A stretch of 37,982 nt of DNA from Candidatus Woesearchaeota archaeon (GTDB lineage: Archaea > Nanobdellota > Nanobdellia > Woesearchaeales > WJIZ01), in NCBI GenBank assembly GCA_018303125.1, contig JAGVYS010000048.1, forward strand, positions 1-37,982, given 5' to 3'. How positions within the stretch are numbered: the stretch's first letter is position 1; the number at the start of each line of letters is the position of its first letter. The notes under the pieces were generated by a model that was given only the letters and a program-made list of their open reading frames with translations, was not told the DNA's origin and ran no database searches. Shown one piece after another: positions 3,981 through 33,432 of this stretch. Made by a program: the position numbers and the translations under genes.

Positions 3981-4700
3981 ATGGAAGAGAAAATCCTTCA
4001 GGAGCTCGGCCTTACCGGAAATGAGGCAAAAGTATACCTTCATTTGCTGGAAAATGGCTCATTAAGCATTACTGAAATAACAGATAAAGTACCAATTCAT
4101 AGAGTAAACACTTATGATTTGCTCAGGAGATTGCTTGAAAAGGGGTTAGTTTCTTTCAGGATAGAAGGGAAGAAAAAATATTACTCCGCCACTTCTCCCG
4201 AATATCTGCTGAAGACATTGGAAGAAAAGGAAAATATGCTCAGGGAGATTCTGCCAAGGCTGCAGGAAAAGCAGAAATCAGGAATGGAGAGGCACAGCGT
4301 TAATGTCTTTCAGGGGAAGAAAGGCATAAAGGCAATTCTTGAGGACATGCTGAAGCAGAAAGGAGTTATTAGCGTATATGGTGCACAGGGAAATTTCGCA
4401 GTTACATTGCCTCTTTATTACCAGCAATTCAATAGGAGAAGAACAATAGAAAAGATAAAAATGAAGATAATCCACAGTGAAATCATCAGGGAATGGAGAA
4501 GGAAAAATCCAATAGCTTTTGCTGATGTAAGATTCATATCCAGATTTTACGATAGCCCATCAACAACTTTCATTTATGGAAATAAGATTGCCATTGTAAT
4601 GTGGACTGTTCCACCTATAGGGATTATGATAAGCAGCAAAGAAATATCCAGAAGCTATTCAAACTTCTTTGATATCTTATGGGGAATATCAAGCAGATAA
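3981..4700 (+). CDS. TrmB-family transcriptional regulator
   Basis: The protein has 239 residues. The N-terminal winged helix (residues about 1-75: LGLTGNEAKVYLHLLENG, then SITEITDKVPIHRVNTYDLL, then a basic wing RIEGKKKYYSA) is typical of the TrmB N-terminal domain. A helical linker (LKTLEEKENMLREILPRL) leads into a C-terminal effector-like domain (about 105-239, KGIKAILEDMLKQKGVISVYG). TrmB proteins sense small metabolites, often sugars, and repress or activate. The TATA box at 3952-3960 lies about 25 nt before the ATG, so the message is leaderless. The divergent arrangement with the radical SAM gene and the shared palindrome suggest local plus autogenous control. The ligand is unknown. Confidence 0.85.
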   Translation: MEEKILQELGLTGNEAKVYLHLLENGSLSITEITDKVPIHRVNTYDLLRRLLEKGLVSFRIEGKKKYYSATSPEYLLKTLEEKENMLREILPRLQEKQKSGMERHSVNVFQGKKGIKAILEDMLKQKGVISVYGAQGNFAVTLPLYYQQFNRRRTIEKIKMKIIHSEIIREWRRKNPIAFADVRFISRFYDSPSTTFIYGNKIAIVMWTVPPIGIMISSKEISRSYSNFFDILWGISSR

Positions 4701-4714
4701 TATGATTATGGTGA

Positions 4715-4811
4715 CGGGCCCTAGGGGATTCGAACCCCCGACCTATCGCTTAAGAGGCGATTGCTTTGGTCCTTACTTTGGGTAAGTCTGGCCAGGCTGA
4801 GCTAAGAGCCC
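4715..4811 (-). tRNA. tRNA-Lys (anticodon CTT) with intron
   Basis: Read on the minus strand, the acceptor stem GGGCTCT pairs with AGGGCCC and the discriminator is G. The anticodon stem ATCGC/GCGAT encloses CTCTTAA with anticodon CTT (4752-4754), and the T-arm is GGGGG-TTCGAAT-CCCCT. The gene is 97 nt, too long for a class I tRNA, because of an insert between the D-loop and the 3' side of the D-stem. Removing 22 nt (4766-4787) leaves a textbook D-arm GCTC-AGCCTGGCCA-GAGC and a 75-nt mature tRNA. CCA is not encoded. A TATA-like CTTTTTATAG on the minus strand (about 4836-4845) is suitably placed for a promoter. Confidence 0.92.
4766..4787 (-). other. 22-nt tRNA intron at position 22/23 (D-stem), bulge-helix-bulge type
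   Basis: The intron folds as CTTAC-CCAAA-GTAAG. On the exon side of that hairpin there is a 3-nt bulge AGA, then GGCC facing GACC (three pairs and one C-A mismatch), then a 3-nt bulge AAA. Cutting after the second base of each bulge, as archaeal splicing endonuclease does, joins G22 to A23 and restores four perfect D-stem pairs. The site is non-canonical; most archaeal introns are at 37/38. The boundaries are deduced from structure, not observed. Confidence 0.75.
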
Positions 4812-4877
4812 ATCATAGAACCGGAAACTGTGCCACTATAAAAAGTTATCCAGTCATTTGCTGAGCTATACCGACGA

Positions 4878-4907: not shown

Positions 4908-5021
4908 ATGGCGAATTATGCAGCCATGTGCTTTTTATGCCTGTTTTCCTGTTCAAATTGCCAATGTATCTTTCAGGCTATTATTAAACCAGTATACAAA
5001 ATAGTAACATTTATATATTAG
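4908..5021 (+). CDS. Possible 37-residue Cys-rich small protein
   Basis: An ATG at 4908 lies 24 nt downstream of the TATA-like palindrome, the leaderless spacing used elsewhere in this window. The frame (start MANYAAMCFLCLFSCSNCQC) is hydrophobic with five Cys in its first 20 residues, then IFQAIIKPVYKIVTFIY. The stop overlaps the ftsZ TATA box. There is no Shine-Dalgarno motif and no recognised family, so it may be chance. It is listed because promoter spacing and length agree. Confidence 0.2.
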   Translation: MANYAAMCFLCLFSCSNCQCIFQAIIKPVYKIVTFIY

Positions 5022-5056
5022 CTGTACCATAAAAAAGACACAATAATTCAGAGGTG
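5009..5056 (+). promoter_or_regulatory. ftsZ promoter and Shine-Dalgarno site
   Basis: A strong TATA element ATTTATATATTA lies at about 5009-5020, and GAGGTG at 5051-5056 is 6 nt before the ATG at 5063. This is one of few first genes here with both a leader and a strong Shine-Dalgarno motif. The motif decides the start: a GTG at 5054 lies inside it and is not used. Confidence 0.7.
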
Positions 5057-5062
5057 CTGAAT

Positions 5063-6127
5063 ATGGATTTCATAATAGAATCTGCTGTCAAGCAGGCGGG
5101 GAAGATGCCTGAGCTCGAAATAGGCCAGGCCAATATCAAGGTTATAGGATGCGGGGGTGCGGGCTCCAACATGGTAGATTGGCTCTACAAGAAGGGAATA
5201 AGGGGAGCAGAAATAATCGCATGCAACACTGACCAGCAGCATCTCAACATGACAGAGGCAGACAAGAAGTTCCTGATAGGAAAAGAGCTTACCAGGGGCC
5301 TTGGATGCGGTGGTTTCCCGCAGAAGGGAGCAGAGGCAGCTAAGGAGTCCATTGCAAACATAAAGGAAGCACTTTCAGGCGCAGAGATGGTATTCGTGTG
5401 CGCAGGCATGGGTGGCGGAACAGGAACGGGTTCAGCACCTATCATCGCAAATGTTGCAAGGGAAAATGATGCAATTGTAATAGGCACAGTAACGATGCCT
5501 TTCAACATAGAAAGGGCAAGAATCGATAAGGCAGAGTTCGGATTGCAGCAGCTAAGGCAGGTTTCTGACACTGTTATTGTTATAGACAACAACAGGCTTG
5601 TCCAGGTTGCAGGAAATCTTCCAGTGCAGCAGGCATTCGCAGTGGCAAATGAGCTTGTCTCTACAATGATTAAGGGAATAGTTGAGACAATAGCCATACC
5701 TAGCCTTGTAAACCTTGACTTTGCAGATGTAAAGGCGATAATGACCAATGGAGGAGTTGCAGCCATAGGTGTAGGAGCATCCGACACCAATAACAGGGTT
5801 GATGAGGCAGTTAGGGGAGCACTTGCAAACCCATTGCTCGAGATATCCTATAAGGGCGCAACAGGCTCATTGATACAGATTGAAGGTGGGCCTGACCTAA
5901 CGCTTGAGGAAGTAAACAGGATTGGCGAGCTTGTAACCGAGAACCTTGACCCTGACGCAAACGTCATATGGGGCGCAAGGGTAAAGGAAGAGATGCACGG
6001 TAAGCTTACAGTAATGACAATAATGACTGGTGTAAAATCGCCATGGATACTGGGCAAGGCAACAGAGAAGGAGAGGAAAACCCACAGCCATGCATTGGGC
6101 AGTGAGCTCGGAATAAGGATGGTATGA
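5063..6127 (+). CDS. ftsZ: Cell-division GTPase FtsZ
   Basis: The protein has 354 residues. The GTP-binding signature GGGTGTGSAP is at 117-126, preceded by VIGCGGAGSNMV (28-38) and the NTD loop (55-57). The T7 loop NLDFADVKAIM supplies catalytic Asp residues, and VIWGARV follows in the C-terminal domain. FtsZ polymerises into the division ring and hydrolyses GTP between subunits. The start is the ATG with GAGGTG upstream. The C-terminus is short (LGSELGIRMV), without a long linker, and could be where a partner binds. The gene overlaps the next one by 4 bp (ATGA), giving translational coupling to a repeat protein and then a coiled-coil protein. Archaea often have FtsZ1 and FtsZ2; which one this is would need a tree. 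Confidence 0.95.
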   Translation: MDFIIESAVKQAGKMPELEIGQANIKVIGCGGAGSNMVDWLYKKGIRGAEIIACNTDQQHLNMTEADKKFLIGKELTRGLGCGGFPQKGAEAAKESIANIKEALSGAEMVFVCAGMGGGTGTGSAPIIANVARENDAIVIGTVTMPFNIERARIDKAEFGLQQLRQVSDTVIVIDNNRLVQVAGNLPVQQAFAVANELVSTMIKGIVETIAIPSLVNLDFADVKAIMTNGGVAAIGVGASDTNNRVDEAVRGALANPLLEISYKGATGSLIQIEGGPDLTLEEVNRIGELVTENLDPDANVIWGARVKEEMHGKLTVMTIMTGVKSPWILGKATEKERKTHSHALGSELGIRMV

Positions 6128-27235: not shown

Positions 27236-30200
27236 TTATCCTTTTCTGGGTTTCTTTTTCACTGGCTTGAGCAGCAAATTTATGCCTATGCCCATTGCAA
27301 CCACTGTCAGTATGACAGCAATTCCTATGAACAGGTTTGGCTTGCCGACATCGCTTACAGCCATGCCAGTTATGCCTGACTTTCCGTAAGTGTTATTCCA
27401 CAATATGCCTGACATTTCCTCATCGCTCATTCCTGCAGGCTTCTGCGGCTGTACAATCGGCTCTTTCTTGGGCTGCTCAGGTTCTTTCTTCTCGATAGGT
27501 TTCTTCGCAGAAGATCCTCCGCCTGCACCGCCTCCTCCCCTTGGACTGCCTGCTACGCCTCCTCCAGAAGATGAGCTCCCACTTCCAGGTGAGGGAGGCT
27601 GGGCTGGCTCAGTGGTGAAAGCGTATTCTACAGCTGCTGAATTGGAAAGCCCTTCAATCTTGTAATAGGTTCCGATATCAGTGCACTTGTAAGTGTTTGA
27701 ATTTGATGTTATAGCCGTACCGTCGCAACGCAATGAAAGTTCCACTGTGCGATTGCAGTTGCTGCTTACCTCTGCGAGTGAATTTATCTCAGAGTCAACA
27801 ACGCATACAGTGTTTAAGGTATTGTTCAACTGAGGAACATATGCTGTCTTTGTCCTGCCAGACTGTAAGTTAAGGCCTTTTATCAAGATAGCTCCTCTCT
27901 TGCCTGATGTTGTAACCTCCACAGTGAATCCAAGGTTAAGGAAGCTTCTGCTGAAATTATGGTTGAACTGCACTATAGGGTCTGTTCCTGAAAATATTTC
28001 AACAGGATATACCTCTGCAAATGCCTTGCTTAGGTCAATGCTTCCATTAATGAGCACACCCAACGGCTTTACAAATCCTGATACGCTTACGCTCCCCTCT
28101 ACATAGTCCTCGTCCTTTGAGTTGCAGTCCTCATCAATCCCGTTTTGCGGTATTTCATCGGCATCAGGGTGTATTGATGGGTTATTGTCATTGCAATCAA
28201 CGGACTGAGGGTAAGAATCCTCATCGTCATCATGCTCTATCGTAACTGATAGTAAAATGTTATTTGAGCCGCCGTAGGTATTTTTGCACTCCATAACCAG
28301 GTCATGTGTTCCGAATTGCACCCTGGATAAGGTTTCAGTATGGTTTCTTGATTGGTTTACGCCGAATGAGCCAGATCTCTTTAAAATTCCTGCATCTGAA
28401 AAGGAATAAGTACAGTTTGTAAGGTCGTCAGTTAGCACGCTTAGAGTTATCGGGTTTGCAAGTACTGACTTGGATGGCTGCAGCCTGCTAAGGACAGGTA
28501 CCTTCCTGAAAACAGGAATTTCTATTTCATGTGCATCGTTGTTTGTATTAGCATCTCCAGTAGCGCTTACTAGTATCTTTACTTTGCTCGTTCCAGCAAC
28601 TTGAGGTACCCAGAATACATCCCGGAGTAGGGAGTCTCCTTCCTTTATGCTGCCCAGCTGCTGGACAGAAATTGTCTGGCCGTCAGCTATTAATGTTGCA
28701 GTAACATCATCAGCTTTCTTTGTACCATCATTATTTACAAGATACTGGAACCTAGTGGAAAAGCCTGTTGTTGATCCTCCGGGCGAAAATATTGTGGGAG
28801 TTACATCAGGGCCGTCATTCCTTGCGCTTACAGAGCTTTGCCTTTCATTGTTAAGCGGCGTAGCCTCATTCGCTGCGGTAATTATAGCACGTATGGTGTA
28901 AATTCCCGGCTGTGCAGGCTGCCAGCCTACTTTTATAGTGCGCCTTTCATCAACTAAAAGTGAGGCAATTTGTGATGTGGAATGCAAATTCCCGTTTATG
29001 AATATGTCCAGCTTCGCATTTGTGACATTCAATGAGCCTATGTTTACAAAGCTAACTGTAAAATTGTCTGTGATGTCAACAACATATGTCCTTTCAAATG
29101 TCATTGAGTCCAGGGATATGTCAATGCCAAATCCTCCTACTGTAAACTGCTTCTGATCAGCATTGTTGGAAGGGTCAGTTTCGTTGGTTGAAGATATGAA
29201 CAGTTTGGTGTTTACAGGGCCTGTCCTTGATGGTGTCCAGATTATTGAGGCCTTTATTGCCTCATTTATGGCAATTGGCTGCAAGTCGGAATGCAAAATG
29301 GTTCCTGTACCGAAAGTGAGCGCACTAAAGCCGGCGAATGTCCAGTCAAGAGTGATTATTACCCCATTGGCAAGCTTTGCAGACTCGGATACAAAGAGCT
29401 CTAAAATTTCATGCTGGTTGCCATAAGTCACATCCAAGATTGTTTCTTCCGCATTTTTCTGGGATGGGTTTATTTTATACGTAACAGACTGGTATGTAAA
29501 ATCATTTGGCAATGAATGCCTGGCAAATGTCGCCTCAGCATCGTATACTATGGCTATGTCAGCCGCGGTATTTTGTGCTTCCTTTGAGCCTAAATTTGAA
29601 ATGCTTGCCTGGAAATTGTATTCCTGGTCAGTTGTAATGCTTGATGTTGATCTGCCTAGTGCAAGAATTTTCTTGTCACTCTTGAATATCTCAAGCTTTG
29701 CCTCAAGATTCGGCCCAGAATCAGATGCAATTATTTCCTTAATGAGCGTATTTGTCTTTGGCTCAATGTCAATTATGCTAGGTACTGATGAAACATGTAA
29801 GATATATGTTCCCTTTCTTGGCGGCGAGACAGATGCCGATATTGTTGAAATTTCTCCAATAGGCAGCTGGTTAAGATTGTGCGAATAAGTTGTGCTCTCT
29901 CCCATAATCACCTGGATGCTATTTGTCCCGAAAATCAATATTGCCTCTTGTCCATTGCCAAGGCCGAAGATTGACTTATCAGCCGCAATGTACTCATTTT
30001 CTGTCCCATTTATGGATATGCGGATATTCACAGAATCTCCCAAGCTTCTTGAAGTCATTCTGTACTCTGTGCCATCTCTTGTTTCTAGGAAATTGCCATC
30101 TTTCGCAATAGTAAACTCCTGCAATTTTCTCAGAAGCGTAAATCTTGTGAATACAGATACAAAATCTATATTTCCCATATTCCTTGCCCTTAAGGTGATT

Positions 30201-33200
30201 GCATTGTTTTCGCCTACAAAAAGCCTTGATGGCGTGCTTAGGTCAAGAATCTCTACATCGGCGCCTTTAGTGCGCACACCGAAATAATAATCCTCACGGT
30301 TGTTTGTTAGGTCAACTTCTCCTGCAGTGTCAAGATTAATTGACATAATGGAATCTCCGACCTTTTTCGGGAAAGAAAAAAAGTTGCTCGTGATGTTCTT
30401 GCCGCTTCCTATTGGCCCTATGCTGCTGGTTTCTATTATTGCCTGTGAAAGGGATACTATAGTAATGAAATCCGTGACAGTGTCTATGCGTACCATGTTG
30501 CCATTTTGAAGTATTGGCCTAGTTTTGGCCTTAGCAGGGAACTCCTCGGTCCTTCCGCTGTAGCTTACCTGCAGCATTGGTCCGTCGGCAGTGTCTCTAA
30601 GGCTAAAGGTATAGGATGTTCCTTCATAAACAATTCCCTCAGGCCTGCCCCAAAATAGGATAGCCATCCTCGAGTCCTGTCCGAGTGTTGATGTAATCGT
30701 TATGCTTTCTGAGTCTGATATTCCGGTATTCTCAATGTTATAAGTTACAAGGAGAATGTCATTAACAAATGCATTGTTATTTGTGCTCAGTAGCGGAGTG
30801 AAAGGTATTGTGCTGTCCTTCCTCTCTATCTTCACTATTTTCACACGAAGATTAGGTCCACGTACAACACCATTTCTACTTATTGCTAAGGCATTGTTTT
30901 CCAGTAATACATCATCAGCGGAATTTAGATTTGCAATTATCTCATATGGTATCTGTTCATTAGGCGTTACAGCTATGATTTTTGTAATATTGGCAAGACT
31001 ATCCAGGCTGAAAATTTCCTCATACATGGAAAAATTCCTTCCGATTGTTATGTTGACTTTTTGCCCATCAGAGCTGGCATATATTGAATAGCCATCGATG
31101 TTGCCAATCTCTCTGTTGTAAAGCAGCAAACTATATGCAGTGCCATCAATTGTGAAGTTTAGCTGTATTTTTCCAACTGAAATTCCAGACTTCACAAGAT
31201 AAGTTTGCTCTTCAAAAACAATTTCTTTCGGGACTCCAATATCAGCAGAAGCATGCACTGGCGAGGCTATTGTGGCAAGCACAAGCTGGAAGTTCTTAGC
31301 CTCATTGTCGCCTTGGTTTTCAATATCAATCGTTATGTTGTTTGATTCATTCACAATAAATAGCTCGTTTGCTGTAAGCGTCTTTATGGAAAGGTCAGGG
31401 CCTGTTGATACCACATTAACAATGAAAGTCACAAAATCATTGCCGGTATTTTCATCTCCTGGTGCTATAATTTCAGCTTTCAGCTCTGTCTGCCCAAGCT
31501 GGTCAGGTATCCAGGTAAACTGGACTAGCTCTGATTCAGATGGCTGGAGAAGCCTTACAGATTTTTCTTCAACAGCAACGTATTGGCCTGCAACCTTCTT
31601 GTATAGCCTTGCAGTGGCTTTCTGGGAAAGGGCAAACGCAGTGCCATTATTTGTAATATTGAATACAGGGAAACTCTGGGCATTTATTATTGCCCTCCCG
31701 AACTGGACAGCAAGATTCTCTGCTGCATAGTCTATATGGGACTCACCTGATGTTATCATTATTGTGAATCCAGAATTGCTATAATCTTGTGTTGCATCCT
31801 CAACACTTACATATGCCCTGCCTGACTGTGTCGGAGAGTATATAATATCGGAATCAATCGAACTTGAAATTGGAGATACTCCATCTGTGCCATACACGCT
31901 TATCCTGATTGCATTTTGGCTCTCAACTGAAATCCTGTAGAAATTTCCGGCATGTGCAGTGAAAGTCACATAATCCGCATCTCCCGATACAGAGAATGTA
32001 TGGGATTTGGATGTGCCATCTGTCTGTATTTCTCTTGCCTGGGTATAATCATTGTCAGGCTCAAAACCATCTACGTTTGACGGAGCCGTGGTTGAATAGT
32101 TAATTGTATATTCACCTATTGGGAAGCTAGTCAGACCATTGGAAAGCCTGATTGTATGCGAACCTGCGGCGAAATCAGTCCATGCAAATATGCTGTTTGT
32201 ACCTGTTCTTATGACATTGCCATTGGCATTAAGAAGCTCAACCTTTGCATGTGTAGGTATTGTTCTGTTCTCTATGTCTAAAATAGCAAACTCTCCTGCT
32301 ACCTTGCTAAAAGTGAAGTAATCAATATCGCCTTCAGGATAGAAATTATGCTTTTCTTTTACATCCTTTGCAAGGCTCCTTGCCTGTTGTATGTTATCAT
32401 CATTCTCGAATGGGTCATCTGCAAGTGGAGTTGCACTAAGGACAAAATCATACACACCTATATTTCCTGACACTGCTGCGAAATAAGAAGCGCTTGCAGG
32501 AGGATACCAATAAGCTAAGCTTGAAGGTATGTTTATGATAAGACTCTGGGCATTGTCATAAATCTTTAGCAATGGCGAGAAATCATCCTGCTTTCCGGAT
32601 GCATTAAGGAGGTAAACGAAGTTCCTTGTAGCATCAAAAGATACAAAGTCATTATCTGCTTCAGGATAGATGCTGCGAAGCTGTTTGCTGTTAAGAGCAA
32701 GTGGCTTTGCCTGTGAGAATGAATTATCTGGTTCAAATGAGTCTGCGCCTATAACCTGCACTGTTGTTGTGTTTTCAACAATGCCGGATGTGAAATATAC
32801 ATGAATCCTTATTAGGTAAACGCCCAATTCTATGTTTTTAGTGTTGAAAATTGCAAGTGTGCTGGAATTTACAGCTGTGCCTCCCCCATCAGCAAGTATC
32901 ATTCTGGTTGTCTGGAAATTGGATGCGCCTAAAAGTGCATAATCCATCTCATAAAACCTGAATCCCTTGCCGAAGGCAGAGCCTTCTATAGTTATTTCAT
33001 CCTCTGAAAATGTGCCTTTTGTTGTCAGGATGGCAGTTTCGTCCTCGTCAGTTAAGGCAGCTGCCTGTCTTCCGAGCTCATCTGTCCTTCTGGAGCTTCC
33101 TGTTTCATCCGCTACAGAGGCCTTTCCTATAGTCATTTCCTCTTCAGAATCATCTGTTGCATCCTGGTCATCTGCATCAGGATTGTTTTCATCTGCCGCT

Positions 33201-33403
33201 ATATCAGAGTCTCCAGTATCATCATCTTGGGACTTGTCATCCGCTACTATATTATTAACAGATTGGTCTTGCAGGACATCAGGTACAGTTTGATCATTGC
33301 CTGACTCAGTACTCCCGTCCTGCAAAACATTGTTTTCCGCAAAAACAAAGAGCGAAAATAGTAGTATAATCGCAAAAAGAATAGATTTTGTATGCTTTGC
33401 CAT
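27236..33403 (-). CDS. Giant secreted surface protein with PPC, CARDB and MopE-like modules
   Basis: The protein has 2055 residues from ATG 33403 (MAKHTKSILFAIILLFSLFV, signal peptide, likely cut near FA-EN). An acidic Asp/Glu/Gln/Ser-rich stretch runs to about residue 90. Three PPC-like repeats start near 222, 330 and 447 (FEPDNSFSQA, FENDDNIQQA, FEPDNDYTQA). About seven CARDB-like beta-sandwiches follow (near 559, 668, 844, 1044, 1227, 1424, 1527; signatures such as ITIDIENQGDNEAKNF). An Ig-like module precedes an acidic MopE-like metal site near 1724 (DCNDNNPSIHPDADE, NGIDEDCNS). A Gly/Pro/Ser spacer, then GITGMAVSD, one membrane helix and KPVKKKPRKG anchor the C-terminus. It probably serves as an adhesin or envelope protein. 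It fills 16% of the window. Confidence 0.9.
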   Translation of the reverse strand: MAKHTKSILFAIILLFSLFVFAENNVLQDGSTESGNDQTVPDVLQDQSVNNIVADDKSQDDDTGDSDIAADENNPDADDQDATDDSEEEMTIGKASVADETGSSRRTDELGRQAAALTDEDETAILTTKGTFSEDEITIEGSAFGKGFRFYEMDYALLGASNFQTTRMILADGGGTAVNSSTLAIFNTKNIELGVYLIRIHVYFTSGIVENTTTVQVIGADSFEPDNSFSQAKPLALNSKQLRSIYPEADNDFVSFDATRNFVYLLNASGKQDDFSPLLKIYDNAQSLIINIPSSLAYWYPPASASYFAAVSGNIGVYDFVLSATPLADDPFENDDNIQQARSLAKDVKEKHNFYPEGDIDYFTFSKVAGEFAILDIENRTIPTHAKVELLNANGNVIRTGTNSIFAWTDFAAGSHTIRLSNGLTSFPIGEYTINYSTTAPSNVDGFEPDNDYTQAREIQTDGTSKSHTFSVSGDADYVTFTAHAGNFYRISVESQNAIRISVYGTDGVSPISSSIDSDIIYSPTQSGRAYVSVEDATQDYSNSGFTIMITSGESHIDYAAENLAVQFGRAIINAQSFPVFNITNNGTAFALSQKATARLYKKVAGQYVAVEEKSVRLLQPSESELVQFTWIPDQLGQTELKAEIIAPGDENTGNDFVTFIVNVVSTGPDLSIKTLTANELFIVNESNNITIDIENQGDNEAKNFQLVLATIASPVHASADIGVPKEIVFEEQTYLVKSGISVGKIQLNFTIDGTAYSLLLYNREIGNIDGYSIYASSDGQKVNITIGRNFSMYEEIFSLDSLANITKIIAVTPNEQIPYEIIANLNSADDVLLENNALAISRNGVVRGPNLRVKIVKIERKDSTIPFTPLLSTNNNAFVNDILLVTYNIENTGISDSESITITSTLGQDSRMAILFWGRPEGIVYEGTSYTFSLRDTADGPMLQVSYSGRTEEFPAKAKTRPILQNGNMVRIDTVTDFITIVSLSQAIIETSSIGPIGSGKNITSNFFSFPKKVGDSIMSINLDTAGEVDLTNNREDYYFGVRTKGADVEILDLSTPSRLFVGENNAITLRARNMGNIDFVSVFTRFTLLRKLQEFTIAKDGNFLETRDGTEYRMTSRSLGDSVNIRISINGTENEYIAADKSIFGLGNGQEAILIFGTNSIQVIMGESTTYSHNLNQLPIGEISTISASVSPPRKGTYILHVSSVPSIIDIEPKTNTLIKEIIASDSGPNLEAKLEIFKSDKKILALGRSTSSITTDQEYNFQASISNLGSKEAQNTAADIAIVYDAEATFARHSLPNDFTYQSVTYKINPSQKNAEETILDVTYGNQHEILELFVSESAKLANGVIITLDWTFAGFSALTFGTGTILHSDLQPIAINEAIKASIIWTPSRTGPVNTKLFISSTNETDPSNNADQKQFTVGGFGIDISLDSMTFERTYVVDITDNFTVSFVNIGSLNVTNAKLDIFINGNLHSTSQIASLLVDERRTIKVGWQPAQPGIYTIRAIITAANEATPLNNERQSSVSARNDGPDVTPTIFSPGGSTTGFSTRFQYLVNNDGTKKADDVTATLIADGQTISVQQLGSIKEGDSLLRDVFWVPQVAGTSKVKILVSATGDANTNNDAHEIEIPVFRKVPVLSRLQPSKSVLANPITLSVLTDDLTNCTYSFSDAGILKRSGSFGVNQSRNHTETLSRVQFGTHDLVMECKNTYGGSNNILLSVTIEHDDDEDSYPQSVDCNDNNPSIHPDADEIPQNGIDEDCNSKDEDYVEGSVSVSGFVKPLGVLINGSIDLSKAFAEVYPVEIFSGTDPIVQFNHNFSRSFLNLGFTVEVTTSGKRGAILIKGLNLQSGRTKTAYVPQLNNTLNTVCVVDSEINSLAEVSSNCNRTVELSLRCDGTAITSNSNTYKCTDIGTYYKIEGLSNSAAVEYAFTTEPAQPPSPGSGSSSSGGGVAGSPRGGGGAGGGSSAKKPIEKKEPEQPKKEPIVQPQKPAGMSDEEMSGILWNNTYGKSGITGMAVSDVGKPNLFIGIAVILTVVAMGIGINLLLKPVKKKPRKG

Positions 33404-33432
33404 TTTACCCCGATGATACAAGAAGCAGCCGA

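Follow-up and report, generated by a model that had tools for sequence, protein, structure and literature searches.

A probable D-stem intron at position 22/23 of tRNA-Lys(CUU) in a Woesearchaeales genome with one detected EndA gene

Does a tRNA gene that is interrupted within its D-stem encode a functional tRNA, and what does such a site tell about the enzyme that cuts it? Both questions are raised by a tRNA-Lys(CUU) gene in the 37,982-nt stretch of DNA analysed here (the window), which is contig C5 of a 1.35-Mb, 54-contig MAG that is 94.7% complete. An initial annotation placed a 22-nt intron with a bulge-helix-bulge (BHB) fold at position 22/23 of this gene, and took the odd position to require an endonuclease of broad specificity. 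The FtsZ encoded at 5054-6127 is nearest to Nanoarchaeia/Woesearchaeota MAGs, with a best identity of 85-86%, and on the basis of these matches the genome was assigned to the order Woesearchaeales (DPANN). The tRNA gene sits between ftsZ and a TrmB-type regulator gene (3981-4700). None of the 80 relatives whose FtsZ neighbourhoods were inspected for tRNA-Lys(CUU) carries this tRNA there. On the minus strand, from 4811 to 4715, the gene reads GGGCTCT TA GCTC AGCCTGGCCA G[ACTTACCCAAAGTAAGGACCAA]AGC A ATCGC CTCTTAA GCGAT AGGTC GGGGG TTCGAAT CCCCT AGGGCCC G, the inserted stretch standing in brackets (table 1). Upstream lies a candidate box A; a similar T/A-rich element precedes tRNA-Lys(CUU) at two further loci (L192 and L193).

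Table 1. Features of the tRNA-Lys(CUU) gene (window coordinates) and other introns outside position 37/38 in the same genome (contig coordinates)
Feature	Position	Strand	Remarks
tRNA-Lys(CUU) gene	4715..4811	-	precursor 97 nt, 75 nt spliced; anticodon CTT at 4754-4752
5' exon, tRNA positions 1-22	4788..4811	-	acceptor 5' strand, D-stem 5' strand, D-loop, G22
22-nt intron ACTTACCCAAAGTAAGGACCAA at 22/23	4766..4787	-	same-site introns at loci L160, L161, L162
3' exon, positions 23-73	4715..4765	-	D-stem AGC, anticodon arm, T-arm, acceptor 3' strand, discriminator G
BHB central helix, exon strand GGCC	4790..4793	-	G18 G19 C20 C20a
BHB central helix, intron strand GACC	4768..4771	-	one C-A mismatch vs GGCC
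5' bulge AGA	4787..4789	-	predicted cut AG/A between 4788/4787, from sequence and BHB geometry
3' bulge AAA	4765..4767	-	predicted cut AA/A between 4766/4765, from sequence and BHB geometry
Intron hairpin CTTAC-CCAAA-GTAAG	4772..4786	-	5 bp
Candidate archaeal box A TTTATA	4837..4842	-	26-31 nt before tRNA 5' end; no statistical score
Gln(UUG) and Gln(CUG) introns	L025 (G000:C15:4840-4927), L028 (G000:C54:35804-35891)		15 nt at 21/22, D-loop; central helix GGTC/GACC; inner helices 2-3 bp only
Arg(CCU) intron	L027 (G000:C33:8063-8154)		17 nt, anticodon stem; central helix AGCG/CGCT
Thr(CGU) intron	L123 (G000:C46:5689-5778)		17 nt at 30/31, anticodon stem; CGGC/GCCG
Phe(GAA) intron	L126 (G000:C17:8200-8700)	-	29 nt at 4/5, acceptor stem; ATGG/CCAT

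Two further features of the window deserve mention. The element CCAGTATACAAAATAGTAACATTTATATATTAG lies at 4989-5021 on the plus strand, about 35 nt before the GTG codon of ftsZ at 5054. It is conserved at 86-95% over 24-43 nt upstream of ftsZ, at variable distance, in at least ten Woesearchaeota loci (L049, L091, L031, L057, L032, L094, L085, L043, L087 and L081), and inverted copies are found in L067, L106 and L073; it looks like an operator and box A common to a cell-division regulon. On the minus strand, at 27236-33421, a 2061-aa ORF contains CARDB repeats together with a metal-binding motif of MopE type, and probably encodes a giant surface protein.

Excision of the 22 nt from 4787 to 4766 leaves a 75-nt cloverleaf in which all four stems are formed, with a perfect GCTC/GAGC D-stem, a 5-bp anticodon stem, the anticodon CTT and a 5-bp T-stem containing one G-U pair. 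To parse the locus we used a purpose-written intron-aware program, which removes one intron per candidate and scores both the remaining cloverleaf and the BHB. It gave its top score to exactly this excision, the sole intron-bearing candidate within the window, and found no intronless reading of the locus. An archaeal BHB consists of two 3-nt bulges, each cut after its second nucleotide, and a 4-bp central helix. In the present gene the bulges AGA and AAA, 3 nt each, are symmetric about the helix GGCC/GACC, where three positions pair and one is C-A; the outer helix on the exon side is minimal. Of 20,000 dinucleotide-shuffled versions of the intron, 1 matched the observed BHB score. Given the A present at both junctions, excision at 22/23 or at 23/24 yields an identical product; the BHB geometry favours the former. 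The initial annotation was thus correct in the intron and its coordinates, in the D-stem and length of the spliced tRNA, and in the hairpin, the bulges and the mismatched central helix; it gave no strand, which is minus.

Not every prediction is equally favourable to this fold. In silico, the lowest-energy structure of the precursor reaches -34.5 kcal/mol versus -31.5 kcal/mol with the BHB imposed, and we ascribe this shortfall of the BHB, about 3 kcal/mol, to the C-A mismatch. The precursors of three relatives with an intron at the same site do fold in silico into a BHB. Furthermore, ARAGORN does not report the gene, even with introns allowed, and Rfam misses it at the gathering score, its match (26.7 bits) covering the 3' half only. 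These misses, together with the imperfect BHB, would suit a degenerate or silent gene whose insertion is never removed. We consider such a scenario very improbable, given that both exons are intact, that a box A-like element stands at promoter distance, that the site and fold of the insertion recur in other families with compensatory change, and that this is the sole Lys(CUU) gene detected.

The last point was addressed with a tRNA inventory that combines Rfam matches with a T-arm pattern scan and is incomplete; at its cut-off, Rfam finds 34 tRNAs in the genome. No second Lys(CUU) occurs among the decoded Rfam tRNAs with loci and five further stretches, the remaining Lys genes (L017 and L026) reading UUU. 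An anticodon/T-arm pattern run over the genome matches the present locus alone, and a pattern for Lys(CUU) genes that are intronless or carry a 37/38 intron has no match in this MAG, which is 94.7% complete. The search for a second, normal Lys(CUU) gene, named in the initial annotation as a case against the intron, was thus negative. Codon counts over 23 larger ORFs of the window are 344 for AAG and 293 for AAA. As a separate observation, the anticodon stem of L026 (G000:C37:22924-22998), the second of the Lys(UUU)-like genes, shows an apparent extra bulged A, which may reflect degeneration of the copy, an odd tRNA or an error in the sequence.

To place the intron in a wider context we surveyed 353 Woesearchaeales genomes for Lys(CUU) genes with extra length between the D-loop and the anticodon loop, and obtained seven such genes, including the present one. 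Three of them, in G068 and G175 (family f63) and in G179 (f10), have an intron exactly at 22/23 with identical bulges AGA/AAA, and so under the pattern used this site is occupied in 4 of the 353 genomes of the order and in at least three families. The others have a D-loop intron at a different point (G012 and G148, f7) or an intron in the anticodon stem (G290). The central helices of the three same-site relatives, GGTT/AACC, GGTT/GACT and TGGT/ACCA (here GGCC/GACC), are perfect or contain G·U, and the position that is unpaired in the present gene is paired in all three. Additionally, a C-G pair of the intron hairpin is replaced by U-A in f63. In the in-register alignment 96% of cells are paired, versus 30-52% when it is slid by one to three columns, and two pairs have compensatory changes on both sides. 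The covariation shuffle control gave 114/500, on three in-register sequences only; the case for a recurrent BHB at 22/23 is accordingly argued from the slide control and the letters themselves, which suggest it, and not from covariation statistics. The same-site introns may share a common origin or reflect repeated insertion, the two being indistinguishable here.

Among 99 genomes, nearly all of different genera, we counted Lys(CUU) as intronless in 13 cases and as interrupted at 37/38 in 16; this tally was taken from the listed pattern matches, leaving out two further matches that are other tRNAs. Two members of the same family as the present genome, G004 and G006, belong to the latter group, and the intron site of Lys(CUU) thus varies within one family. 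It is the same gene, with nearly identical exons and introns likewise of BHB type, but in G004 and G006 the anticodon loop is interrupted, whereas in the present gene the break falls in the D-arm and leaves the anticodon arm intact. These data also bear on the suspicion that the insertion is an artefact of assembly or binning, which a fragmented source of 54 contigs might invite. Such an error is scarcely credible, with exons that nearly match those of G004 and G006, and with independently assembled genomes of other families carrying an intron at the same site.

Overall, we are highly confident that the locus is a functional tRNA-Lys(CUU) gene with a genuine archaeal BHB intron in its D-stem, at position 22/23, presumably cut by EndA. 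The position is unusual but already known, and the present intron adds one more example: 22/23 and other D-arm positions are listed among the non-canonical archaeal BHB introns (PMC4090602). Like the reviewed cases it is short, of BHB type and found in a tRNA whose genome has several such introns; it differs in belonging to Woesearchaeales and in the company of one detected EndA gene. A literature search on tRNA introns in Woesearchaeota found no paper.

The remaining introns of the genome occupy both canonical and other positions. Canonical 37/38 introns are present in elongator Met, Leu(UAA), Leu(GAG), Ser(CGA), Ser(GCU), Lys(UUU) and Phe. Besides Lys(CUU), at least five introns lie elsewhere (table 1), all with 3-nt bulges and a fully paired 4-bp central helix, the placements in Thr and Phe being a hand reading of the sequences. 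In the D-arm, the introns of Lys and Gln follow a common design, the 3' end of the intron pairing with G18-G19 and the next two D-loop bases. Relaxed features are limited to the C-A pair and weak outer helix of Lys(CUU) and to the very short inner helices of Gln. The 4/5 BHB of Phe(GAA) is perfect, with bulges GGA and AAA and a 9-bp inner helix that includes one G-U; the same gene appears to hold two introns, the second of about 42 nt at 37/38. Two Leu-like tRNA genes (L199 and L203, on G000:C26 and G000:C37) have an identical 3' part and seem to contain one or more long introns, probably several.

We next consider the enzyme. An alpha4 EndA is encoded by a single gene of about 180 aa, assembles as a homotetramer and is strict in its BHB specificity. 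The EndA gene of this genome (G000:C4:54097-54672, minus strand) encodes 192 aa, matches PF01974 with 102 bits and has the N- and C-terminal domains in a single chain, with the catalytic Y, H and K aligned and conserved. One PF01974 and one PF02778 match occur in the genome, both in this same ORF, and neither the Pfam models of the two domains nor the EndA protein itself as query retrieved a paralogue or beta subunit at E up to 10, a search that a very diverged beta chain, or one lost in a gap of the MAG, may escape. An EndA match was found in 58 of the 60 genomes searched, nearly all with exactly one. In the loop-bearing broad enzymes the insertion, with its lysine, is in the N-terminal half of the catalytic subunit. 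No loop insertion is present between the RFG motif and the next strand in this EndA and 29 related ones. At that point Sulfolobus 2cv8 has about 10 extra residues, which from their position are taken to be the Crenarchaea-specific loop; the present EndA has neither that loop nor the ARMAN-type one (CSL/ASL). As judged from its sequence, it is a complete alpha subunit, of the right size and domains for an alpha4 enzyme, and it resembles the alpha4 EndA of Methanocaldococcus jannaschii (1A79) in its one-chain size and acidic C-terminal loop. The closest solved structure is 3iey_A, the catalytic subunit of Nanoarchaeum equitans (E 3.4e-36). With respect to the (alpha beta)2 enzymes (N. equitans 3IEY and A. 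pernix 3P1Z), the sequence is closest to the N. equitans alpha chain; it has no crenarchaeal loop or detectable beta subunit, yet stands alongside introns at several positions.

Reviews class alpha4 enzymes as narrow in specificity (PMC6379350) and attribute broad specificity to beta-subunit types and to CSL/ASL loops (PMC6379350, PMC4033280, PMC12397907). It could be that the 22/23 site is a relaxed one, which this lineage can cut only by virtue of an endonuclease of broad specificity, heterotetrameric or loop-bearing. The C-A mismatch and the minimal outer helix would agree with this, as would the spread of introns over several positions, a pattern shared with lineages that have broad enzymes, and the affinity to the N. 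equitans enzyme, which is broad in specificity (PMC6379350). Nevertheless, we regard it as unlikely. The genome has a single PF01974/PF02778 ORF without paralogue at E up to 10 and nearly all relatives have one match per genome, the residues additional in Sulfolobus 2cv8 have no counterpart, and the other five introns outside 37/38 have fully paired central helices and 3-nt bulges. Nor does an odd position by itself support the broad enzyme assumed in the initial annotation: archaeal endonucleases recognise the local BHB (PMC12397907), and only one central pair is imperfect here, that pair being formed in the three relatives. The one endonuclease detected is an alpha-type chain; the loops and beta partner tied to a broad type were not detected. 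Two readings follow: either an enzyme of alpha4 type cuts any BHB regardless of its place, or the lineage has relaxed specificity without a known loop. A strict, position-blind alpha4 enzyme is the simpler of these, relaxed specificity without a loop the more interesting. We tentatively put forward, as a possibility, that the single-gene alpha-type EndA of Woesearchaeales, with neither CSL/ASL loop nor beta subunit, processes introns at many tRNA positions, imperfect BHBs included.

On the reading of the locus as a functional gene with a BHB intron, the transcribed precursor would pair the 3' end of the intron with D-loop residues 18-20a, G18 and G19 included. The pairing would create the central helix between two 3-nt bulges and block the normal D-arm. 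EndA, presumably a homotetramer acting on a locally recognised BHB, would then cut AG/A and AA/A, and a ligase, normally RtcB, would join G22 to A23. Joining would restore the GCTC/GAGC D-stem and free G18-G19 for the contact between D-loop and T-loop. Exon ligation in archaeal tRNA splicing is normally carried out by RtcB, for which this MAG has no PF01139 match. Of the 99 genomes searched, 92 have RtcB, with 6/6 other family members among them; its absence here is therefore likely an assembly gap, and on the same grounds a different ligase in its place was set aside. In several relatives (G002, G005, G031, G082, G083 and G090) RtcB is encoded in a frame of about 990 aa, and its match is interrupted after residue ~50 by a long, intein-like insert.

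The same isoacceptor is disrupted in another way in a related DPANN archaeon. In N. equitans, and in some Staphylothermus, tRNA-Lys(CUU) is split at 30/31 (PMC4090602), and two genes are joined in trans at that point, whereas the present tRNA would be spliced in cis from one gene at 22/23. The non-canonical intron models of tRNAscan-SE 2.0 were trained on Crenarchaeota/Euryarchaeota and Thaumarchaeota (PMC8450103). Standard tRNA finders miss genes such as this one, and the tRNA sets of DPANN MAGs are thus likely under-counted.

In current accounts, non-canonical introns go together with endonucleases that have either a beta subunit or a loop bearing a lysine (PMC6379350, PMC4033280, PMC12397907). 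Less expected is the pairing found in this genome, where acceptor-stem, D-arm and anticodon-stem introns occur beside a single detected alpha-type EndA that has no such loop; this raises the question of whether tolerance of position and tolerance of motif are separate properties of the enzyme. If the proposal for the Woesearchaeales EndA is true, the spread of introns to new positions would need neither the loop nor the subunit innovations that have been credited for it.
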